In this document: piece by piece, positions 1 to 14,816 of the stretch
How positions within the stretch are numbered: the stretch's first letter is position 1
How the letters are laid out: every line of letters begins with the position of its first letter
NCBI GenBank assembly: GCA_938003855.1
Contig: CALKXD010000287.1
Span: 1 to 32,702, forward strand
From: an uncultured Granulosicoccaceae bacterium
GTDB lineage: Bacteria > Pseudomonadota > Gammaproteobacteria > Granulosicoccales > Granulosicoccaceae
DNA length: 32,702 bases
Reading direction: 5' to 3'
The notes under the pieces: model-generated
Told to the model about the DNA's origin: nothing
Databases searched by the model: none
The model's input: the letters and a program-made list of their open reading frames with translations, nothing else
Made by a program: the position numbers and the translations under genes

Positions 1-51
1 TACGTCTCCGTACAAGGCAACTTCACTCATTCCAAGTAACTTTTCGGTCAT
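1..51 (-). CDS. 5' end of a small ORF truncated by the window edge; candidate RiPP precursor
   Basis: Only the first 17 codons are visible, reading MTEKLLGMSEVALYGDV, and the frame is open to the window edge. A GGAG sits six bases before this ATG. A second in-frame ATG lies four codons upstream at 63, but the ribosome-binding match favours 51. The gene is last in the minus-strand order YcaO, TfuA, metalloprotease, this ORF, about 43 bases after the protease stop. I do not recognise the sequence. The start of a precursor peptide is an inference from position only: the visible part has a leader-like mix of charged and hydrophobic residues and no core can be seen. It could equally be the start of a larger unrelated protein. 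Confidence 0.5.
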   Translation of the reverse strand, partial: MTEKLLGMSEVALYGDV

Positions 52-94
52 TGCATTCTCCATTGGTGGTTGAATATCCAGTTGTGCGTTTTTG

Positions 95-1579
95 TCAGTC
101 TGCCTGCCGGTGAGCAGGTTTGTTAAGGTCTCTGGCCTCGCGGTAGCGACGGGCGTAGGGGACCGGCCGACGCCTCGTGCAATACGCGCTATGATCATCC
201 TTATTCTCTGAAAACGTTTGAATAAGTCCATGGTTATTCAATGGTTCATTGTCTTCGCGTCGTTTGCTGTGACTGCAGGGGGTCGCAATAGTGAGGGTGT
301 CACTGTGGTCGGGTCCGTAGTCTGTTTGCTTTGTGCTATGACTATGCGAGCCGCTGTTGTCCTTCGGCAGTTGCGGGCCAACGATGGCCGTACCAATCTC
401 ACGCCATTCAAAGTTCACATTGATAATGTTGTGGTAGGCACGGTCAAACAGTCGCCGGTCAGCGGAAATCATAGCGCTGTGGATATCTGTGTATTTCAGG
501 TAGTCGGGTGACAGCTTTGCCCATGTTTCAATTAACAGTGTGGCAAGCGCATCACGCGCGTAGATAAGTGCATGGCGAAACGTTACCGGGTGTGCCTGGT
601 AGGCGGCGTCGAAATCACCCTGCAGTCGTTGCTCGTACTGATCAGATCCTTCGAGTAAATCAGAGATTTCCTCAAGCGTTGTGGAAATAGCCCCTGTTCT
701 GACGAGTTCTTCATGGAAGATGTCGACCAGTATATCGAATATTGCCCCGGTTAGCGGTTGAGCCAGTAAATGTGAGTCTTTCCAGCCGGCGGAAAAATCG
801 GACAGCTTGCTGTTGTTGCTTGCCATGCGGATCTGGCCGATTGCGGAAGTTTCAGCAAAACGATTTAGATGATTGGCCTGGTATAGGTTGCCTGATGTCG
901 ACTGGAGAATCTCGTCGACTACGGAATCAAAGTGCAGGGCGGCGATCATCGAAACTACATCGCCACTGGATTCCTGAAAGCCGAGAAACTCACCGGTTTC
1001 CTTGTCGAGGTCTGGTTCACCGACTTCGGTAAACAAAATGCCATGGCCGACTTCATGAGCAATGACATCAAAGTTGAGTGTGAATGGTGAGCGCTTGCCG
1101 TCGATCTTGCTGACGTCTGTGCCTATTTCAATAAAGCCGCGGCCAATTTGCGCGTTTTCAAACGCCGGTAGCACCACGACTTCGGCCTGCGGGTAGTATT
1201 GACTGAAATACCATTCGATGGGTCTTCCGTAGTATCCCTCCCACACATCGAGTGTGAAGCGGATAGACGCATACGTATGTGCCGCTTGAAACTGCGGATC
1301 GTCGATGTTGTCGTAGTGTAGGAAATGACCGTCTTCGTCCGGTACGGGGGGTGCGTAAATCGGCCCGTCCCAGGGCGGCAGATACACATAGGGGTTGCCG
1401 TTGTCGTCTTCGTGCATGCCGTAGGCTATGCCTTTTCCAACCGGGTTGATGACAAACATCCGGTCATCAGCGGGACCTGGCCCGACACTACCGGCAGGTG
1501 ATGAGAGCTCTATGATCTCTGCCGGCATGCTGCCTGGCCCGGTTGGGGTCTGCGGATATATTCTAAATTGTGTACCCAA
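95..1579 (-). CDS. HExxH zinc metalloprotease (gluzincin-like), TTG start
   Basis: The protein has 494 residues and carries HEVGH at 175-179 followed by a third-ligand-type Glu in ESSGD (E203, D207). This HExxH plus ExxxD layout is typical of gluzincin proteases such as the M4/M36 families. No signal peptide is visible, so it probably acts in the cytoplasm, unlike secreted thermolysins. The last 85 or so residues are polar and basic with a short His/Ser-rich patch and may be disordered. The start is a TTG; a GAGGAA seven bases upstream supports it and no closer ATG fits. It lies 53 bases after the TfuA gene on the same strand. In a YcaO-TfuA locus the plausible job is cleavage of a leader peptide, which is inference. 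The family call is fairly sure; the substrate is unknown. Confidence 0.8.
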   Translation of the reverse strand: MGTQFRIYPQTPTGPGSMPAEIIELSSPAGSVGPGPADDRMFVINPVGKGIAYGMHEDDNGNPYVYLPPWDGPIYAPPVPDEDGHFLHYDNIDDPQFQAAHTYASIRFTLDVWEGYYGRPIEWYFSQYYPQAEVVVLPAFENAQIGRGFIEIGTDVSKIDGKRSPFTLNFDVIAHEVGHGILFTEVGEPDLDKETGEFLGFQESSGDVVSMIAALHFDSVVDEILQSTSGNLYQANHLNRFAETSAIGQIRMASNNSKLSDFSAGWKDSHLLAQPLTGAIFDILVDIFHEELVRTGAISTTLEEISDLLEGSDQYEQRLQGDFDAAYQAHPVTFRHALIYARDALATLLIETWAKLSPDYLKYTDIHSAMISADRRLFDRAYHNIINVNFEWREIGTAIVGPQLPKDNSGSHSHSTKQTDYGPDHSDTLTIATPCSHSKRREDNEPLNNHGLIQTFSENKDDHSAYCTRRRPVPYARRYREARDLNKPAHRQAD

Positions 1580-1632: not shown

Positions 1633-2976
1633 TCAGCCAGTATTGTTGGCTCGCAGACAGTAGTATAAGTAATCTTCGCTGATTAATCGATAGAAGTCGT
1701 CGCTATCGGGCAGATCTATTTTGCTCAGGTGTGAGCCTAGCGGTCGGGGGATCGGTGTGCCAAGCTTGTGGGTGAAATACCAGGCCAGTACTTGTGGTGG
1801 TGGAGGATCAGCGATGTTGCCGGCAGCACTTAGCATGGTTTGTTTTTCACACACGCTCTGATGCAAAGCGGTGTATCGTCCGTCAAGCTTCAGCTGATTG
1901 ACTATGCCGGTCTGCAGGCCGGTGGTGCTTTGCTGTAACTGAGTGACCCGTGCGGCGTCTTCGAGTAACTGTGTGAGAGATGATTCATCCAACCCGCAGT
2001 TCTCCATATAGGAACCAATTTCTTTTCTGGTGCTTAAACGGTTGTCTGCCTTAAATTGTCTGAGAGCAGATTTTACCTCTGCCGCCGTTGGCTGTGTGGT
2101 GGCGGGGTTCCGGGCCAGGTGATGAAGCAGCGCCTGTCTTTTGTAGCGGGTGTATGTGTCGGGGTCCAGTCGTAGTTCATCGAGAATATGCCGTTCTTTG
2201 CCGGCCCCAGTGTCATTCGCCGGGCCGTAGAGCTGGTAGGCCCGATCCCATACATTAGTCCATTCAAAGTGGAAGTCGGCAAAAGGAATGTGCCGGGCAG
2301 GGCTGTCGCCTGTTTTCTGTTGGCTGCTATCCTGAAACCGTGCGTGTAAGTGATGAAACAATTGCAGGGCATCCTGCTTTTTGAGATCGATGCGGTTTGA
2401 TTTAATCCAGGCTATCAGTGTCTCATCCGTTTTGCCATCGGATGACTGTTGCCGCTGGCCGGTCAATAGATGCTCCCAGCTCCTTTGCTTATAGAAAGTT
2501 GATTTTGCCGTGCTGATTAATGCCTGACAGTAGGCGCTGTCAATGATTCCCTGTGCCTGTGCCAACGCCAGTGTGGCGCGTATGTTGACCATTGGTTCTG
2601 ATATTGTCAGATAATTTGCCTCGGCCGGGCCGTGTAAAACTGCCACTTCATCATCGTCTTCAACCACGCCGTCACGATACCACTCGAATATCTGCCCGAC
2701 TCCCACCATGCCGAACGGGTTGAGCTCGGCGGCTCGCAGCGCACCCATGCTCGAGCAGCCATAGACCGGTACGTTCTGATCCAGCGCGTAGAGGATTTCT
2801 TTGTGCCAGACAGAAGCGGCTCCCTCAAAGTAGCCATCAATAATAGCAATGGCATCGGGCTTCAGTTGCAACGCGGTTAAGATGTCACCATGCTGGACCG
2901 GTGGCAGATGCGCGCACTTCAGGTGCGGCGCATGCTGAGCGGGGTTGATGGTAGGCCCGGCAAATACAACGATCAT
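1633..2976 (-). CDS. tfuA: TfuA domain protein, partner of YcaO
   Basis: The N-terminal part matches the TfuA domain: a short beta strand near 1-6 (IVVFAG), IDGYF at 46-50, WHKEIL at 57-62, GCSSMGALRAAEL at 73-85, IFEWYRDG at 96-103 and an acidic stretch DDDEVAVLH at 107-115. At 447 residues it is much longer than the core domain; the helical C-terminal two thirds resemble nothing I can name. TfuA proteins are known from trifolitoxin production and, with YcaO, from backbone thioamidation of peptides and of methyl-coenzyme M reductase, where TfuA is thought to help deliver sulfur. The ATG overlaps the stop of the YcaO gene (ATGA), so the two are probably translationally coupled. The domain identity is clear; the target is not. 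Confidence 0.9.
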   Translation of the reverse strand: MIVVFAGPTINPAQHAPHLKCAHLPPVQHGDILTALQLKPDAIAIIDGYFEGAASVWHKEILYALDQNVPVYGCSSMGALRAAELNPFGMVGVGQIFEWYRDGVVEDDDEVAVLHGPAEANYLTISEPMVNIRATLALAQAQGIIDSAYCQALISTAKSTFYKQRSWEHLLTGQRQQSSDGKTDETLIAWIKSNRIDLKKQDALQLFHHLHARFQDSSQQKTGDSPARHIPFADFHFEWTNVWDRAYQLYGPANDTGAGKERHILDELRLDPDTYTRYKRQALLHHLARNPATTQPTAAEVKSALRQFKADNRLSTRKEIGSYMENCGLDESSLTQLLEDAARVTQLQQSTTGLQTGIVNQLKLDGRYTALHQSVCEKQTMLSAAGNIADPPPPQVLAWYFTHKLGTPIPRPLGSHLSKIDLPDSDDFYRLISEDYLYYCLRANNTG

Positions 2977-4274
2977 AGTGGCGTGTCCTGCCGTGCCGAC
3001 AATGCCCTGACGCCAGGCTGATAGCTGTCATCATCGTGTGGTGCTTCAAGTCCCGGTACAACAATACGAACCACGTTGATATCGTATTGAGGTTTGCGCA
3101 AATCTACACGCAGCACCTGCGTTATGTTGCAACGACGTAGTTGCTTGAAAATCTGATTGAGATCCTGCTGTACGGATCCCGTATCCAGGTCGGTGGTTCG
3201 TGAAAAATCCGCAGTAAATGATGACTGATCTATGTAGCGTTGAAAATACTCGTGCTTCGAACTTCTGCCTTCATCAGTGTATTCATACCGGGTGATGTCG
3301 TCACGCGCACCGACAATATAAGTGGTGCGCACCTGCACAGCTTCGTGCAAAGCGCGTAACAGAGCCACCTCCCGGGACAAATGGGTGCCCGACCCTATCC
3401 CTATATGCTGACTGTGGATGCTGCGGTCGCGGATAACGCAGAAGTAACCGGGCAGACCGGTATCAGTGGTGATATCCCAGATTCGCGTGTCTTGCTCAGC
3501 GGCATCAAGTTTAGCCAATGTTTGCTGACACAAAGCGCTGTCGATGGTTTGACGATTGAGGGATGTGCGGTCGATTGCTGTGTGGTTGAGTTGCTGCCAC
3601 AGCGTGAGTGCGTCCCGCTCCACTACTTCACAGATTCCGTGAATTGTCGCCTCATCAATACTGTTGCCCGAAGCCAGTCCATTGCTACTGGCATGAAAAC
3701 AACCGGCCCCTGACGGGCGCGGGTAGGTATAGTTAGTGTGCACCATCTCGTAGGGTAGCCAGATCGGTGAACCGTCGATCAGATTTGTTGATTCAATCCA
3801 GCTAATTGGAAAGTGTGCGTCGAACGGAGAACCTGCTGCCTGTGGCAGACGGTCGGTATCAACTACTGATCCGGTCTGCTGCAGATCTGCCAGAGTAGCG
3901 ATTCGCAGCGGCAGGTTGATATGCTCTGCGTGGAAGCTTTCTATGCTTTCCATCAGACCTGATACTTTGGCTGCCTCCAGGCTGTGTCCCTTACCTTGTG
4001 AGACAGAAACCGAGCGTGAGTTGGGCCTGCACACCATTACCACCGGAATGCCGATGGTATCGAGTCCGGTGACATCAGCAATTCGTGTGATACCCATCGA
4101 TTCCATGTGTGGACTTACACGGGCCAGTGTCTGCTGAGGGTTCCGGATGCGGTGTGTGCCTGTTCGATAGCAAATTGAATCGTTTAGTTTTTGCATAGCA
4201 GGGGCTTCTTCCTGGAAGTGTGTTACCGCACTTACCGCACTTACCGCACTTTGGGCGCAGGCATTGCTCGACAT
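2973..4274 (-). CDS. ycaO: YcaO-family ATP-dependent cyclodehydratase/thioamidase
   Basis: Three blocks of the YcaO ATP fold are visible: QGKG with ESIE at 93-112, SNGLASG running into EVVERDA at 197-222, and EVALLRALHEAVQVR at 302-316. YcaO enzymes use ATP to activate backbone amides, giving azolines, amidines or thioamides. The C-terminus lacks the PxPxP tail usual in azoline-forming members, and the partner is TfuA, so thioamidation is the likely reaction. Two starts are possible: ATG 4274 with GGTGAG six bases upstream, or ATG 4196, which drops 26 poorly conserved-looking residues including a Ser-Ala-Val triple repeat. The protein is 433 or 407 residues long. It appears to be the first gene of its operon, divergent from the flavoprotein gene. 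Confidence 0.92.
   Translation of the reverse strand: MSSNACAQSAVSAVSAVTHFQEEAPAMQKLNDSICYRTGTHRIRNPQQTLARVSPHMESMGITRIADVTGLDTIGIPVVMVCRPNSRSVSVSQGKGHSLEAAKVSGLMESIESFHAEHINLPLRIATLADLQQTGSVVDTDRLPQAAGSPFDAHFPISWIESTNLIDGSPIWLPYEMVHTNYTYPRPSGAGCFHASSNGLASGNSIDEATIHGICEVVERDALTLWQQLNHTAIDRTSLNRQTIDSALCQQTLAKLDAAEQDTRIWDITTDTGLPGYFCVIRDRSIHSQHIGIGSGTHLSREVALLRALHEAVQVRTTYIVGARDDITRYEYTDEGRSSKHEYFQRYIDQSSFTADFSRTTDLDTGSVQQDLNQIFKQLRRCNITQVLRVDLRKPQYDINVVRIVVPGLEAPHDDDSYQPGVRALSARQDTPL
4223..4249. repeat. Three perfect tandem copies of a 9-base unit
   Basis: The unit TTACCGCAC occurs three times without interruption. On the coding strand it gives repeated Ser-Ala-Val between the two candidate YcaO starts. 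A change in copy number would keep the frame, so it would vary the length of the N-terminus or of the leader rather than switch the gene off. Confidence 0.85.
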
Positions 4275-4580: not shown

Positions 4581-5834
4581 ATGTCAATTGAAAAAGTTGA
4601 AACGCTTGTTGTCGGTGGTGGCCAGGCCGGGCTGGCTATGAGCGAGCACCTCAGTAACAGTGGTGGCTCTCACCTTGTGCTGGAACGGCACCGGATTGCC
4701 GAGCGCTGGCACACTGAGCGGTGGGATTCCCTAATGGCGAATGGTCCGGCGTGGCATGATCGATTCCCGAGTATGGAGTTTGCCGGTGTTAAGCCGGACG
4801 AGTTCGCTTCGAAGGCGCAGGTAGCGGAGTACTTCGCCTGCTATGCCGAGCTGATCAAAGCGCCGATCCGCTGTGGTGTCGACGTCTTAAAGGTGCGAAG
4901 AAATTCGGCGCGGGCAGGGTTCACCGCTGAGACAACCGCTGGCACCGTCGAAGCGCAAAATGTGGTTGCCGCCACCGGTCCGTTTCAGCACCCGGTGATT
5001 CCCAAAGTGTTGCCGGAAATTGACGGCGTGACACAGTTGCACTCGAACAGTTATCACAACCCCGGGCAATTGCCCGATGGTGCTGTGCTGGTCGTCGGGG
5101 CAGGATCGTCCGGCACCCAGATCGCTGACGAGTTACGGCGCTCGGGCAAGCAGGTGTACCTTTCTGTTGGACCTCACGACCGGCCACCGCGCCGCTATCG
5201 GGGGCAGGATTTCGTCTGGTGGCTGGGTGTCCTTGGTAAATGGGATGCTGAGACCGTCGAGCCTGGCAGAGAGCACGTTACCATAGCTGTCAGTGGTGCT
5301 TACGGCGGTCGCACTATAGATTTCCGCAGCCTGGCTGCCGACGGTATTGTGCTTACCGGTATGACGGAGTCATTCCAAAGTGGCTCTGTTACGTTTGCCG
5401 ATGATCTGGTTGGTAACCTGGCTGCCGGTGATGCGAACTACCTGTCTGTGCTGGACGAAGCTGATCAATACATTGCGCGAAACGGACTGGATTTTCCGGA
5501 TGATCCACAAGCGCGCGTACAGGCACCTGAGCCGTCCTGTGTGTCCGACCCACTACGGCAGTTGCATCTGGCTGAAGCCAATGTCACCGCTGTTATCTGG
5601 GCGACAGGGTACTCTGTAGATTACCACTGGCTCGATGTCGATGTGCTGGACGCGCAAGGCAAGCCTGTGCATCACCGTGGGATTACCGCAGAGCCGGGTA
5701 TCTATTTTCTGGGGCTGCCGTGGCAAACCCGTCGCGGATCCTCGTTTATCTGGGGCGTCTGGCACGATGCAAAAAACCTCGCGGACCACATTGCCAAGCA
5801 GCGAATGTATCGACAATACACGCCTGCAGACTGA
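4581..5834 (+). CDS. FAD/NAD(P)-dependent flavoprotein monooxygenase-like oxidoreductase
   Basis: The 417-residue protein starts with a beta strand and GGGQAG at 12-17, the FAD-binding dinucleotide fold. A second Rossmann motif, GAGSSG, lies near 172-177 and would bind NAD(P)H. ATGY near 340-343 is the late motif of class B flavin monooxygenases and their CzcO-like relatives. Such enzymes oxygenate soft nucleophiles (N, S) or ketones, or act as reductases. AAGGA lies seven bases before the ATG and supports this start. The gene is transcribed away from the YcaO operon. A role as a tailoring enzyme for the YcaO-TfuA product is possible but rests only on position; it may be an independent gene. 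The fold assignment is firm and the substrate unknown. Confidence 0.85.
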   Translation: MSIEKVETLVVGGGQAGLAMSEHLSNSGGSHLVLERHRIAERWHTERWDSLMANGPAWHDRFPSMEFAGVKPDEFASKAQVAEYFACYAELIKAPIRCGVDVLKVRRNSARAGFTAETTAGTVEAQNVVAATGPFQHPVIPKVLPEIDGVTQLHSNSYHNPGQLPDGAVLVVGAGSSGTQIADELRRSGKQVYLSVGPHDRPPRRYRGQDFVWWLGVLGKWDAETVEPGREHVTIAVSGAYGGRTIDFRSLAADGIVLTGMTESFQSGSVTFADDLVGNLAAGDANYLSVLDEADQYIARNGLDFPDDPQARVQAPEPSCVSDPLRQLHLAEANVTAVIWATGYSVDYHWLDVDVLDAQGKPVHHRGITAEPGIYFLGLPWQTRRGSSFIWGVWHDAKNLADHIAKQRMYRQYTPAD

Positions 5835-6194
5835 CGCCGCGCCGGGTTGTGTGGGCAACGCTGGCGGCGGCTGGTAGTAATGTCACTGTTGTTATACTCG
5901 CGGCTTAGTGTCTGAGCATTGCCAATAGTCATGAGCAGTCTGGATGGGGGGGGATTTATTGTGCCAGGCAGGCGCGTGTAACGCAGCCACGGGGTTCCGG
6001 CTTACGTAGTGCGGTCTATTAGACAAGGGCTCGCATGCGTCGTGAGTTCGGGCGTCGAACATCACAGTACAAAGTCACTGCGGTTTTATAGACACGCCTT
6101 TGAGGCTGATAATTTCGCGCTGCAGGGTATTTTTTACTGTCATCGAAGTCCGTTTCCGTCAAGCATTGCACCGATATAATAACCGCCCGGAATT

Positions 6195-6212
6195 ACTGGT
6201 CAAAATACCAGT
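6195..6212. terminator. Small stem-loop downstream of amn
   Basis: ACTGGT and ACCAGT form a six-base-pair stem with a six-base loop about 90 bases past the amn stop. There is no U-run on the minus strand, so a terminator role is weakly supported. Confidence 0.25.
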
Positions 6213-6227
6213 GGTCATCGTTGTCTG

Positions 6228-6243
6228 AATCGACACGTCGATT
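6228..6243. repeat. Perfect 7-base inverted repeat with 2-base centre
   Basis: AATCGAC and GTCGATT flank a two-base spacer. The shape fits a protein-binding half-site pair better than a hairpin, but it sits downstream of amn and no promoter is seen next to it. Confidence 0.4.
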
Positions 6244-6300
6244 TGCTATGGTCGATTGCGGGCCGGCTATTGTAGCGAAGCAATTGTCAGGCAGCCTCTG

Positions 6301-7776
6301 CTACTGGAATGCGGTCTCAAAAAAGCTGCGCAGTTTCCGCGAGTGCAATCGCTCAGGCTCCATTGAGGCAAGCTTGCTAAGTGCCAGCATACCGATCTGC
6401 AGATGCTGTGCGACTTGCTCCTGATAGAACTTGGATGCCATTCCCGGAAGCTTGAGCTCACCTTGCAAGGGTTTATCAGAAACGCAGAGCAATGTGCCAT
6501 AGGGTACCCTTAATCTAAAACCATTGGCCGCAATGGTGGCGGATTCCATGTCCAGTGCAATCGCACGTGACTGCGACAAGCGTCGTACTGGTTCGCGGTG
6601 GTCCTGCAGCTCCCAGTTGCGATTGTCTATAGACGCAACCGTGCCGGTACGCATTATTCGTTTTAATTCCATACCGTCGAGCCCGGTGACCTCTGCCACG
6701 GCAGCTTCCAGCGCTTGCTGTATTTCGGCCAGTGCGGGAATAGGCACCCAGACCGGGATATCGTGATCGAGTACTTTGTCTTCACGTACATAGGCGTGCG
6801 CCAATACATAGTCACCGAGTGCCTGTGAACTCCGCAAGCCGGCGCAGTGGCCAAGCATCAGCCAGGCATGCGGTCGTAGCACCGCTACGTGATCAGTGAT
6901 GGTTTTGGCGTTTGAGGGTCCTACGCCGATATTAATTAAGGTTATACCACGGCCTTTTTTCCCAACCAGATGATACGCAGGCATCTGCGGCAATCGTGTG
7001 AGCGGCTCGCCGCTGCTGTGAGTGGCGCCGGACTCGGTGATAACATTGCCCGGCTCTACAAATGCCGAATAGGGTGAGTCTCCGTCTTTCATCATCTGCC
7101 GGGCGATGCGACAAAACTCGTCAATATAGAATTGGTAATTGGTAAATAACACATGGTTTTGAAAATGAGCCGGATCTGTAGCGCAGTAATGCACCAGGCG
7201 ATGCAGCGAATAGTCAACGCGCTGTGCCGGAAACGGCGACAACGGACTCGGCTCGCCGTCGGTGGGTTCGTGAGTGCCATTGACGATAAAGTCGTTCACG
7301 TGTTCGATGTCCGGCACATCGAATGTGTCACGCAAGGCGGCGCTGATGTCGGCCGGGCCTTCTCCGGCCATCTGAGTGCCGGCTTTTAGAGCGAAGTGCA
7401 GTGGAATAGGTACGGTCGATTCGACGATCTCAACCGGCATCTGGTGATTGTTGATCATCAACTCCAACTGGTGCCGCAAGTAGCCGCGAAACAACTGCGG
7501 CTGGGTGATGGTTGTGGAATATAGTCCCGGCTGGCTGACGTGCCCGTACGACATCCTCGAAGTAACTCTGGCGTAGGTATCGTTGCGGAAGCGGATTTCC
7601 GGATAGCAGGCGCGGTGCTTGTTGGCTGGCAGATCGCCGGCCAGATAACGCTTAAACGAGTCCCGCAGGAAGCTGGTATTGCGTTGGTAAATTTCTATTA
7701 GGCGATCAACTGCCCGGGCAGGATCGCTGTAGGTTTGCGGGGTGAAAGCGGGAGGGCAGGTGGTTTTTTCTATCAT
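6301..7776 (-). CDS. amn: AMP nucleosidase
   Basis: AMP nucleosidase hydrolyses AMP to adenine and ribose 5-phosphate in the cytoplasm and helps balance adenylate pools. The 491-residue protein is close to the length of the E. coli enzyme (484). The N-terminal half carries the Amn-specific region (RYLAGDLP, SYGHVSQPG, TTITQPQLFR) and the C-terminal half has the nucleoside phosphorylase fold with GVGPSNAKT, GHCAGLR and DMES at 409-412, then VSDKPLQGE. The frame extends 21 codons further upstream, but the ATG at 7776 is preceded by GGAGAAGG at a suitable distance and gives the family length. A TACAAT box lies shortly upstream of that site. It converges on the flavoprotein gene and diverges from the sulfotransferase gene. 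Confidence 0.93.
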   Translation of the reverse strand: MIEKTTCPPAFTPQTYSDPARAVDRLIEIYQRNTSFLRDSFKRYLAGDLPANKHRACYPEIRFRNDTYARVTSRMSYGHVSQPGLYSTTITQPQLFRGYLRHQLELMINNHQMPVEIVESTVPIPLHFALKAGTQMAGEGPADISAALRDTFDVPDIEHVNDFIVNGTHEPTDGEPSPLSPFPAQRVDYSLHRLVHYCATDPAHFQNHVLFTNYQFYIDEFCRIARQMMKDGDSPYSAFVEPGNVITESGATHSSGEPLTRLPQMPAYHLVGKKGRGITLINIGVGPSNAKTITDHVAVLRPHAWLMLGHCAGLRSSQALGDYVLAHAYVREDKVLDHDIPVWVPIPALAEIQQALEAAVAEVTGLDGMELKRIMRTGTVASIDNRNWELQDHREPVRRLSQSRAIALDMESATIAANGFRLRVPYGTLLCVSDKPLQGELKLPGMASKFYQEQVAQHLQIGMLALSKLASMEPERLHSRKLRSFFETAFQ

Positions 7777-8117
7777 TGTATTTTCGCCTTCTCCGTTATT
7801 GTAGCGCGCATTCACTTCGAAAGAAAAACCAATTTTCACCTTTTTGCCTTTGGTGTCGGTATTTTAATCCCTGGAATTCAAATAATAGTGACATCCGTGG
7901 TTATCGAATCCTGCCGCTATGCGACCGCGATGACACCTTGGCAAAGCGTCCTTTGATGGGTTAGTGCGCGGTCTTCAGGCGCTGCCGTTTGCACCGGGGT
8001 TCGCTGAAGTTGCCACCATGCAAAGATCCGGTACCAGTCAATCGAATTTCAGCGTGGCGTTGTGCTGCGATTTGCTGGTAGTCTGTCCGGCCGTTAGAGA
8101 GCGCTGATTTTTGAACG
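7777..8117. other. Divergent intergenic region between amn and sulfotransferase
   Basis: The 341 bases between the two divergent starts hold no supported gene; plus-strand frames of 60-73 codons here have no ribosome binding site or recognisable content. The minus strand has a TACAAT -10-like box just upstream of the amn ribosome binding site, with only a poor -35 match 17 bases before it. Confidence 0.4.
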
Positions 8118-9041
8118 ATGAATTCAGACAACCGCCAACGACGAGTCTTAAAACGGCCCGCTAATGTTGTTGAACTGATGGAAGTTATGGGGCGCTCGGA
8201 AACTCCCGAAAGCAGAGCGGCTGGTATGGCGCTGCGTTCACGCGCGAGTGATGTCTTTATCTCTACCTACCCGAAAAGCGGTACAACCTGGATGCAGCAG
8301 GTAGTGCATCAAGTCAGGTGCGGTGGTGATGAAGATTATACCGATATCTATGATGTCGTGCCGTGGCTGGAGATGGCGCTTGCTCTGAACGTGGACCTGA
8401 CGGCGCAGCAGGCGGGTGGTTTTCGAGCTTTCAAAACGCATCGACCGTATCAGGAGTTGCCCAAACCCGGACGCTATATCAGTGTGTTTCGTGACCCGAA
8501 AACGGTGGTGCCTTCGTTTTATCGTTTTCTGGCTGACTGGTACTTTGAAGCGAGCGGTGTGTCGGTTGACGAGTTTGCACGTCTGGTGTACCTGGCATCG
8601 CCGGACGGTCACAGAAATCACTTTGCTCAGTGGCTCGAGCGCTCTCAGGAAAAAAACACGCTGCTGTTGTGTTACGAAGATATGCTGGAGAACCCCGATC
8701 AGGTCCCTGAACTGATCGCGGACTTTCTGGAGGTGCCGCTCGATGCGGCAACGCTTGCGCGCGTCAAACACAACTGCTCTCGATCCTATATGGTCGCCAA
8801 CGAAAACCTGTTCGATGATCATCTGGTCAGGCAGCAGCTGGATGCGAGTCTTGGTTTACCCCCGGGAGGCGGGTCATCGAAGGTGTTCAGTGAAAAGTCT
8901 GACAATACACCGGGCCCCGAACTTATCGCTGAGCTCGATCAGCTGTGGGCAGATACGGTTGGTCTGGATTCGGGTTTTGATAACTACCTGACGTTGCGCC
9001 AATCAATGCCCAATCCGCTGCAGGCCAGGCGTCTGTGCTAA
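8118..9041 (+). CDS. PAPS-dependent sulfotransferase domain protein
   Basis: This 307-residue protein belongs to the cytosolic (Sulfotransfer_1-type) sulfotransferase family, which moves sulfate from PAPS to hydroxyl or amine acceptors. YPKSGTTW at 51-58 is the 5'-phosphosulfate loop and SVFRDPKTVVPSF at 122-134, with R125 and S133, is the 3'-phosphate binding site. LLLCYEDML in the middle and the late GGGSSKVFSEKS segment also fit the family. There is no signal peptide or membrane segment. The ATG has only a weak ribosome binding site. No sulfate-activation genes are nearby and the acceptor cannot be guessed. Its stop is followed by a strong hairpin shared with convergent kynU. Confidence 0.9.
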   Translation: MNSDNRQRRVLKRPANVVELMEVMGRSETPESRAAGMALRSRASDVFISTYPKSGTTWMQQVVHQVRCGGDEDYTDIYDVVPWLEMALALNVDLTAQQAGGFRAFKTHRPYQELPKPGRYISVFRDPKTVVPSFYRFLADWYFEASGVSVDEFARLVYLASPDGHRNHFAQWLERSQEKNTLLLCYEDMLENPDQVPELIADFLEVPLDAATLARVKHNCSRSYMVANENLFDDHLVRQQLDASLGLPPGGGSSKVFSEKSDNTPGPELIAELDQLWADTVGLDSGFDNYLTLRQSMPNPLQARRLC

Positions 9042-11287: not shown

Positions 11288-11332
11288 ACAGCCACTGGCA
11301 AATCACAGCGTTTGCTGCACCATGGAGTGACA

Positions 11333-13483
11333 ATGGCTAAGACAACATCCACTGCCCGAAGGCTGCACCCGAGACTTCGGTTGCTGAGAAATGGCAGCAA
11401 AGAGGTTAACGGCTGCCGTACCGAACTGTGCACAACAGTCGCAAGACGCGGGATTGATTCAGGTACAGACAATGCGATGCCGACACAGATATCGGGATTG
11501 GATCTGACCGCGGCACAACAGCAGTCGGTTCAGGCTGATTTCAGTGCGCGGTCTATCAGCGTGCAGCGGACGGCTGGTAAAAAGTTGCCCGGACGCAAAC
11601 CGATGGAGCAACAGGAGAAAGCAGACGACAGTTTCGTTAACGTTTTTATCAGCGTTGAAACCGGCTATGGTGATCACTCGACCAATATTGCCGAAGTTGT
11701 TCAGTCGGTTACCGCTTTATGTCAGCGGCATGGCGTCGATACTGACCACAACGGTTTGACCGAGCAGGTCAGACTAAGTGGTAACCTGTTGCTCGCTACG
11801 GTACCTATTTCGTCGCTCGATGCACTGGAGCAGGATGCGCGGGTATCGTTTGTACAGCCTGCCGAACCCTTAAAGCTCGATATCCCACGTGGCAGTCCTG
11901 CAGCAAAGCCATCTAAAAGCCGATTCCGGCTCGATAAACATCATCGCTACGGTGAAAATATCATTATCGGCATCATCGATGTGGGTGGCTTTGATTTTAC
12001 CCACCAGGATTTCCTCAAAGAAAACGGCAGGACCCGTTTTACCCATCTATGGGATCAGGGGGGAGATTTTCGTTCAGCACCGGATGGATTTAACTACGGT
12101 TCCGAATTCACTGAAATGCACTTCAATAATGCCCTTGATGCAGAGCGCGAGGGGGGAATGCCGGCGTTGCTGCTGGAGCCTCAGTCACAATCCATGGTCG
12201 GTTCCCATGCAACCCATGTCGCCGGTATTGCGGCGGGTAATTCGGGTGTTTGCCGCAATGCAGAGATTGCCGCTGTATTGATTGATGTGCCGCAGCCAAC
12301 AGATGATCGTCAGCGGCGTCAATTTACATTTTCTGATTCAAGCCGGGTAACACATGCGGTGGAGTATCTGCTGGGTATCGCCCGCGAGCGCCGCAAACCA
12401 ATTTCGATCAATATCAGCCTGGGCACCAATGGCGGAGGGCACGACGGCTCGAGTGGTGTCACACGCTGGATCGATAATGCAATGCAGCAACCCGGTCGCA
12501 GTATCTGTCTAGCTGCCGGGAACGCCGGGCAGGAGCGCGGCCTCAGTGATCGCGATTTCGGCTGGATTGCCGGTCGTATCCACAGTAGCGGCCGTATAGC
12601 CTCGCGCGGGCTGGATGCAGAGCTTGGCTGGGTGGTGGTTGGCAATGGCATTCACGACCTATCAGAAAACGAGCTTGAAATCTGGTACAGCGCCCAGGAT
12701 CGATTCATTGTCGAGTTACTCCCGCCTGGAGACGACCGTTGGCTGCGGGTAGAGCCTCAGGACTTCATCGAAAATAAACGCCTCAAGGATGGCACGGTCG
12801 TGTCAATCTATAACGAGCTTTATCATCCATCGAACGGTGTAAATGCGATCTCACTGTATTTGTCACCCCATCTGGAGCCGCGCAATATTCGCGGGGTGCG
12901 GGCCGGGGTCTGGCGCGTGCGTTTGATCGGCGAGGAAATTCGCAACGGCGAGTTCCATTGCTGGATAGAGCGGGACGACCCCGCCGAGATTGGTCAGGCA
13001 GAGCAACAGCGACTGATGCGATTTCCGTCATTTTTTTCCGAATATTCTAATGTTGACTCGCATTCTATCTCGTCACTGGCCTGTGGTAATGCCACTGTTG
13101 CGGTCGCTAATTACAACGCCTCGACCAATAAGATGAACATCACCAGCAGTCAGGGGCCTACTAGAGATAATCGCTATAAACCCGACCTGGCCGCACCGGG
13201 GACAGATATCACTGCTGCCAAAGGATTTGCTGCGGATGGTGATGACTGGATAACCATGAGCGGCACCAGTATGGCCAGTCCCTATGTGGCCGGTGTTATT
13301 GGACTGATGTTGAACGCAAACCCGGAGCTCAATTCCCGTCAGTGTCTGGGCATTCTGCAGAGGACCAGTGTGCCGCTGCCCGGCCGGACCTATGAATGGA
13401 CCAACGATGCGGGGTTTGGCCGCGTCGACGCTAATCAGGCCATTGCAGAAGCGGTGGATTTCACCAAGCGGACGGAACGCTGA
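11333..13483 (+). CDS. S8 family subtilisin-like serine protease
   Basis: The 716-residue protein carries the full subtilase triad: D216 in GIIDVGG, H292 in SHATHVAG and S646 in GTSMASP, with oxyanion Asn397 in AAGN. Roughly 200 residues precede the catalytic domain. About 250 residues lie between N397 and S646, far more than in subtilisin, and include a beta-rich part (LEIWYSAQDRFIVELL and GVRAGVWRVRLIG) reminiscent of the jelly-roll insert of Csp-type subtilases. No clear signal peptide is visible, so it may be cytoplasmic. GGAG five bases before the ATG at 11333 decides the start over an in-frame ATG seven codons earlier. The MBL-fold gene begins 16 bases after its stop, which points to an operon. 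Confidence 0.9.
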   Translation: MAKTTSTARRLHPRLRLLRNGSKEVNGCRTELCTTVARRGIDSGTDNAMPTQISGLDLTAAQQQSVQADFSARSISVQRTAGKKLPGRKPMEQQEKADDSFVNVFISVETGYGDHSTNIAEVVQSVTALCQRHGVDTDHNGLTEQVRLSGNLLLATVPISSLDALEQDARVSFVQPAEPLKLDIPRGSPAAKPSKSRFRLDKHHRYGENIIIGIIDVGGFDFTHQDFLKENGRTRFTHLWDQGGDFRSAPDGFNYGSEFTEMHFNNALDAEREGGMPALLLEPQSQSMVGSHATHVAGIAAGNSGVCRNAEIAAVLIDVPQPTDDRQRRQFTFSDSSRVTHAVEYLLGIARERRKPISINISLGTNGGGHDGSSGVTRWIDNAMQQPGRSICLAAGNAGQERGLSDRDFGWIAGRIHSSGRIASRGLDAELGWVVVGNGIHDLSENELEIWYSAQDRFIVELLPPGDDRWLRVEPQDFIENKRLKDGTVVSIYNELYHPSNGVNAISLYLSPHLEPRNIRGVRAGVWRVRLIGEEIRNGEFHCWIERDDPAEIGQAEQQRLMRFPSFFSEYSNVDSHSISSLACGNATVAVANYNASTNKMNITSSQGPTRDNRYKPDLAAPGTDITAAKGFAADGDDWITMSGTSMASPYVAGVIGLMLNANPELNSRQCLGILQRTSVPLPGRTYEWTNDAGFGRVDANQAIAEAVDFTKRTER

Positions 13484-13499
13484 TGGCAGGTGCCTACCG

Positions 13500-14816
13500 A
13501 TGAAATTGCAACTGTTCGATTCCGCTGAGGGCGACTGTCTGTTGCTGCAGAGCGCTGATGGCAGGAACATACTCTGTGACGGCGGTCGAAGCTCCAGTTT
13601 CCGTAGGCACACGCGTGAGCATTTTGATGAATTGCTTGGCAGTGGCGGGCAACTCGACTACCTCTATGTCTCTCATGTTGATCAGGACCACATCCAGGGC
13701 ATAGAGCAACTTCTCAAAGATGCCCTGGCATGGCAGGTGTACGATTATCACCACGATAATGGCGATAGCGTGCGCAAGCCGGAGGCACCGCGTCCGCCGC
13801 CAATCGGTGGTATCTGGCATAATTCATTTGGTGATCAGGTTGGTGATAATCTGGGTGAAATATCTGATCTGCTGGCGCAGTCTGTCCCCGTGATGTTTGC
13901 GTCGGGTCTTCCTGACCTTGAGCACGCGGCCTACGAGGCGCGCAACATTGCGGCATCGATACCACAGGCATTGCGTGTCTCGCGGTTTTGTCAGCCGGAT
14001 CTACTCGATATACCCATCAATGTGCTGCCGGATAACCCCTGTGCATCACCGCTATTGTATACCGACGGCACTGTTCGTAAATTTTCCGTCGGGTCTCTTG
14101 AGTTAACGTTACTCGGACCCACCGAAAAAGCGCTGGATGACCTCCGCGAAGGCTGGAATAACTGGCTCGCCAGTAGCGGCGGTGAAAAAGCCGTAAAAAA
14201 ATTTCACGACTATATAGAAAAACAGCTGGCACGTTTTGCCACCGGTAGCCTCTCTACTACACCGTTTGATCTATTTAACTGGAACGGAATTCCAGACTTC
14301 CGGGGTGTGACCACGCCGAATGTGGCGTCCCTGATGTTTATGATCGAAGAGGATGGTAAGCGGGTGCTGTTTACCGGTGACTCGCAGCAGGATGTCATAC
14401 TCGATGCGCTGGCCGAGGCCGGGTATCTCGACGATGGTTTTATCCATGTTGATGTGCTCAAAGTGCCGCACCACGGGTCAGAGCATAATATGGACAAAAA
14501 CTTTGCCAGACGCGTATCAGCAGATCACTATGTGTTCTGCGGTGATGGCAGTAATGGCAACCCGGAACCGTCTGTGATTGATATTCTGTATAAATCGAGA
14601 ATCGGTCCGGTCAGTCGCCGGGCCATGGCGCCGGAAGCTGATAACCGTGATTTTACATTTTGGTTCAGCACCGCGCTGGACAAGCTCAATCCGCAAAGCG
14701 TCAATCACGAAAAATTTAAAAAAACGCTGAGCAAAAGTTTGCAGCGGCAGACTGAAAGCGGCAGTTTATTGCAGTTGAAATTTGTTGACGGCGACTATTT
14801 AACAATTGCGGTATAG
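13500..14816 (+). CDS. Metallo-beta-lactamase-fold hydrolase, ComEC/Rec2-like
   Basis: The 438-residue protein opens with FDSAEGDCLLL and ILCDGG, as in the soluble MBL domain of ComEC relatives. HVDQDH at 59-64 is the HxDxDH metal site, D294 in FTGDSQ the bridging Asp and KVPHHGS with H324 and H325 the late motif. Such proteins are two-metal hydrolases, often acting on nucleic acids or phosphodiesters; the substrate here is unknown. No signal or membrane segment is present. The frame is open upstream inside the subtilase gene, but ATG 13500 has AGGTG before it and begins the conserved domain. The tight spacing to the subtilase suggests joint function. Confidence 0.85.
   Translation: MKLQLFDSAEGDCLLLQSADGRNILCDGGRSSSFRRHTREHFDELLGSGGQLDYLYVSHVDQDHIQGIEQLLKDALAWQVYDYHHDNGDSVRKPEAPRPPPIGGIWHNSFGDQVGDNLGEISDLLAQSVPVMFASGLPDLEHAAYEARNIAASIPQALRVSRFCQPDLLDIPINVLPDNPCASPLLYTDGTVRKFSVGSLELTLLGPTEKALDDLREGWNNWLASSGGEKAVKKFHDYIEKQLARFATGSLSTTPFDLFNWNGIPDFRGVTTPNVASLMFMIEEDGKRVLFTGDSQQDVILDALAEAGYLDDGFIHVDVLKVPHHGSEHNMDKNFARRVSADHYVFCGDGSNGNPEPSVIDILYKSRIGPVSRRAMAPEADNRDFTFWFSTALDKLNPQSVNHEKFKKTLSKSLQRQTESGSLLQLKFVDGDYLTIAV

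Follow-up and report, generated by a model that had tools for sequence, protein, structure and literature searches.

A reading frame cut by a contig end begins the gene of a repeat-bearing, RiPP-type candidate precursor beside a TfuA-YcaO pair

The window analysed here (a whole stretch of 32,702 nucleotides from an uncultured Granulosicoccaceae bacterium) raises a question at its very first base: does the minus-strand reading frame that is cut off there after 17 codons belong to a real gene, and could that gene encode the peptide on which the nearby YcaO and TfuA-like proteins act? The initial annotation had proposed a possible precursor peptide, and the features it read from the edge were exactly as described: an ATG at 51-49 on the minus strand, GGAG six bases upstream and a frame, MTEKLLGMSEVALYGDV, open to the window edge and lying 3' of the protease gene on the same strand (Table 1). 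Its statement that the frame has no ATG-started rival also stands, as no minus-strand ATG open reading frame of at least 20 aa lies between YcaO and the next gene, a gap that on this strand holds only TTG and GTG starts (29-45 aa). A GGAG is likewise found upstream of the precursor ATG in a same-genus relative. The window starts where contig C287 starts, and no contig overlapping it was found in the same genome.

Table 1. Coordinates of the precursor gene and the adjoining genes (window positions unless a contig is named).
Feature	Position	Strand	Remarks
Precursor gene, first 17 codons	1..51	-	cut by contig end
Ribosome-binding site GGAG	58..61	-	6-base spacer to ATG
Putative zinc metalloprotease	95..1579	-	HEVGH, then ESSGD
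TfuA-like protein	1633..2976	-	PF07812, 5.5e-48; 4-base overlap with YcaO gene
YcaO	2973..4274	-	PF02624, 2.3e-75
Precursor codons ~29 to stop	C120 4081 down to about 3726	-	homologue leader search

Bases 51 to 1 of the minus strand are the 5' end of a real gene. The 17 codons visible in the window might by themselves be taken for a functionless chance frame, but that idea is refuted by the homologues, by a second fragment of the gene on another contig (see below) and by the scores, and its probability is close to nil: the edge 17-mer scored 61 against the homologue starts, the runner-up among the 2,014 stop-free start-codon 17-mers of the window scored 26, and none of 20,000 shuffles reached the edge score (maximum 38). 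Third codon positions were the most divergent in all five comparisons of the edge gene with its relatives.

A family search with the leader of a same-genus genome (G012) located the remainder of the gene on a second contig of the window's own genome (C120; 4,081 bp), whose terminal stretch encodes residues ~29 to the end, with GGRVS five times and then GGKAD. The two fragments are complementary (residues 1-17 and 29 to the end), occur in one copy each and are each cut exactly by the end of their contig; next on C120 come a convergent TPR class III cyclase gene and then a GNAT gene, the same next genes as in the uninterrupted locus of G401. Because the fragments are complementary and the next genes agree, C287 and C120 are very likely adjacent in the genome, with a gap of about 31 bases provided that the gene is collinear with its relatives and has no indel; the continuity of the gene is thus demonstrated by synteny. 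An in-frame TAA stands 28-30 bases from the C120 end (L020, minus strand), in place of the Tyr of complete family homologues, so that the copy in this genome is possibly broken or misassembled. That it is a recent pseudogene is a distinct possibility, if one on the doubtful side: the TAA itself speaks for it, yet it falls close to the end of a contig, a frequent place for assembly errors, the frame beyond it is entirely open through all five perfect repeats, and the remaining block is intact. A pseudogene in this one genome would, moreover, leave the nature of the gene family unchanged.

What the reunited gene encodes differs in part from what had been expected. The stop predicted within 40-110 codons exists, although it comes later, at ~145 codons, and the short Met-rich leader has given way to a conserved N-terminal domain of ~110 residues followed by a tandem-repeat core of five perfect GGRVS units; the frame neither continues for several hundred codons nor matches an enzyme family. 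In G012 the gene order of the block is identical, and the block is uncut, ending with a 150-aa open reading frame (MTETLLGISEVLMYGEKV...HGGRVSGGRVSGGRVSGGRVSGGRVSGGRVSGGKAD). For the leader domain, no relative was found in Pfam, NCBIfam or the PDB sequences, apart from two chance-level matches in the repeats of a single homologue; a PDB sequence search with the precursor gave no match, and AlphaFold of the precursor alone gave an unusable model (pLDDT 41).

Among homologues from Gamma- and Alphaproteobacteria, the leader is kept and the core varies, which argues for a RiPP-type precursor and upholds the earlier expectation of a variable C-terminal core, with the refinement that close relatives share one core, differences appearing only between groups that are further apart. 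With YcaO-TfuA at the locus, the homologues of family f1 carry GGRVS five to seven times, G128 carries SRADLT five times plus SRADMT, G298 carries KRVSGKRMSG, G483 (of another class) carries GARVS seven times, two Paracoccus plasmids carry RGMSV-like units, and rhizobia and their relatives have a non-repeat tail, LPG[NKR]RSPxxY. A second rhizobial type (L057-L059) combines a cyclase, a protease and a precursor with SRSGG repeats; no YcaO-TfuA was found nearby on these Rhizobium plasmids (about 4650-8580), where the peptide may be modified in trans or left unmodified. Weak matches in G243, G345, G208 and G058, around which the inspected stretch showed neither YcaO nor TfuA, were dropped. The 30 GRVSG units of five genomes contain no amino-acid change (one unit has Ala rather than Gly before it), while all five codons vary synonymously; since the residues are invariant and the codons are not, this comparison of sequences demonstrates selection on the repeat peptide, which maintains the repeats at the protein level, rather than recent DNA duplication.

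The precursor, protease, TfuA and YcaO genes form an operon-like, conserved block, all on the minus strand and convergent with the class III cyclase gene, itself paired with the GNAT acetyltransferase gene. The block shows two genetic marks of clusters for TfuA-YcaO thioamidated RiPPs, namely adjacent ycaO and tfuA genes and, beside them, a small precursor gene with a conserved leader and a distinct core. Thioamidation is the reaction expected of YcaO-TfuA pairs as a family. The closest named models for both enzymes are those of the methanogen McrA-glycine thioamidation YcaO-TfuA (TIGR03266 / NF033432), the McrA-glycine thioamidation YcaO being the top NCBIfam match of our YcaO, and both enzymes fall under the curated equivalog cutoffs (228 vs 365 and 223 vs 235 bits). 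In the longest YcaO frame, a short tandem repeat, cttaccgca (window 4230-4255), encodes an N-terminal SAVSAVSAV; translation probably starts further downstream, at an internal Met near 4196. Beyond the YcaO gene, both same-genus genomes carry an AMP nucleosidase gene (window 6301-7839, L007:5226-6722), the two genes being separated in the window by a flavin oxidoreductase gene (4581-5834) that is absent in the other genome; in three genomes of the family, a DUF3095 protein is encoded upstream of YcaO (L022:35-1228, L024:8559-9740, L065:6876-8054). By eye, the translations of window 11312-14816 show a subtilisin-like protease frame and then a metallo-beta-lactamase-fold-like frame.

The HExxH motif, E203 and D207 of the protease are invariant in 13 relatives, and the protein is at best a distant M36-like one: one relative matches PF02128 at 19.4 bits, below the gathering cutoff of 23.3, only weak matches (to angiotensin-converting enzyme, around the HExxH motif) were obtained against PDB sequences, and AlphaFold from two sequences gave unusable models (pLDDT 35). 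It matches 136 plasmid records (rhizobia) and is missing between TfuA and the precursor in G023, G298 and P. kondratievae (Paracoccus); it is thus common in the family loci without being universal, and hence not essential to every member.

The genes beyond the block recur as well. Precursor, TfuA and GNAT are present in the identical six of 48 family genomes (chance 1/C(48,6) = 8e-8, a rough figure, as the genomes are related), and in all six the GNAT gene adjoins a TPR class III nucleotide cyclase gene. The GNAT-cyclase pair and the precursor lie on different contigs in G012, G406 and G407, with two further cyclases flanking the precursor in G406, and in G483, of another class, the same pair adjoins the precursor. 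A transposase-like open reading frame (by eye; L003:2-187) directly follows the precursor in G012, where the pair is on another contig; an insertion possibly split this locus. Cyclase-type proteins recur by related clusters in Alphaproteobacteria, the domain forming in rhizobial loci the N-terminus of a ~1,000-aa AAA protein, often with a weak Pfam score; it was undetected by Pfam in L043, and G519 gave no match. PF00211 matches number 8 in 6.8 Mb in the genome of the window (one adjoining the precursor), 11 in 7.8 Mb in G401 and 5 in 3.8 Mb in G023 (two on the precursor contig); at those densities about 0.02-0.03 cyclases would be expected within 10 kb of a given gene, so that a cyclase next to the precursor is not trivial. 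Of all the partners, the cyclase recurs most constantly, and it is found even at loci that lack YcaO-TfuA. NCBI's TIGR04510 (putative peptide modification system cyclase) ties a nucleotide cyclase to a putative modified-peptide system, and the TPR cyclase matches this model only in its first ~100 residues, with 31.6 bits where the cutoff is 400.

The nearest precedent for a repeated core thioamidated by YcaO-TfuA is thiovarsolin (var) of Streptomyces varsoviensis, in which the thioamide lies between Pro and Arg of APR (PMC6511847). Common to both are the YcaO-TfuA pair, tandem core repeats (up to five in var) and an X-X-Arg core; the thiovarsolin products are N-acetylated, which was ascribed to an endogenous enzyme (PMC6511847), and here a GNAT gene recurs. 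The var cluster has no dedicated protease and no reported cyclase, and carries heme oxygenase, ATP-grasp, amidinotransferase and MFS genes (PMC6511847), whereas the present cluster has Gram-negative hosts, a GGRVS core and a leader domain of ~110 aa; of the traits of the thiovarsolin family, the conserved block has the repeated core and lacks the APR/GPR core and all of varO, varL, varS and varP.

We consider it fairly likely that the cut frame opens a RiPP-type precursor gene whose repeats are thioamidated, released as short peptides and linked to the cyclase. Going by known families, the leader domain would dock YcaO-TfuA, which would thioamidate the backbone in each repeat; that these two enzymes modify the GGRVS repeats is probable. 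By analogy with the Pro-Arg position in thiovarsolin, the likeliest site would be the Gly-Arg bond, just before the Arg of GGRVS. Several copies of a short peptide would then be freed from each precursor by the HExxH protease or, at loci lacking it, by a housekeeping protease, the GNAT may acetylate the new N-termini, and the neighbouring cyclase probably couples peptide production or sensing to cAMP or cGMP.

Both the release and the chemistry can be read otherwise. The product might remain an uncleaved small protein, its tail thioamidated in place like McrA/uL16, and act inside the cell as a partner or a sensor for the class III cyclase; the near-constant company of a cyclase-type protein, the loci without protease or without YcaO-TfuA, the unusually large leader domain, the lack of an exporter (or immunity gene) in the conserved block and the action of YcaO-TfuA on whole proteins too (McrA providing the top NCBIfam matches) would all suit it. 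We nevertheless think it unlikely, since identical tandem repeats that vary in copy number and core type are typical of a multi-core precursor and a dedicated protease directly precedes the precursor in most loci. More improbable still is that YcaO forms azolines at the repeat Ser instead of thioamides: many YcaO proteins do make azolines and the GGRVS, GARVS, SRADLT, RGMSV and SRSGG repeats all contain Ser, but a TfuA partner marks a thioamidating YcaO, the best NCBIfam matches of both enzymes are thioamidation equivalogs, and the conserved block contains neither a dehydrogenase nor an E1-like partner.

That RiPPs can be thioamidated, that their cores can be repeated and that Proteobacteria carry TfuA-YcaO clusters is already known (PMC6511847; PMC8120280). 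Malit et al. (2021) reported proteobacterial TfuA-related BGCs, with more than 500 TfuA-YcaO pairs in Rhizobium; the loci found here would belong to that set, and some may be listed there without description, the main text making no mention of repeats, cyclases or an M36-type protease (PMC8120280). Our search of main-text literature on TfuA with a cyclase, GNAT or metalloprotease found this architecture not described, nor did we find there a description of the precursor family, its protease, the GNAT or the recurrent cyclase. Only tentatively, the whole may be seen as an undescribed, widespread proteobacterial signalling system. It would combine a class III nucleotide cyclase with a gluzincin protease and a precursor that has several cores and a separate leader domain, YcaO-TfuA being the usual addition and the GNAT an addition of one branch; several short thioamidated peptides per precursor would control, or be controlled by, cAMP or cGMP.

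The gene at the window edge thus adds a precursor family without a Pfam or NCBIfam entry, and gives a class of Gram-negative TfuA-YcaO clusters a concrete precursor and hence a predicted product; the GGRVS precursor looks like the starting material for an as yet uncharacterised peptide natural product. The related loci on rhizobial plasmids make it testable in cultivated strains, and the repeated presence of a cyclase gene nearby hints at a connection with signalling of a kind that the main texts searched do not describe for thioamide RiPPs.
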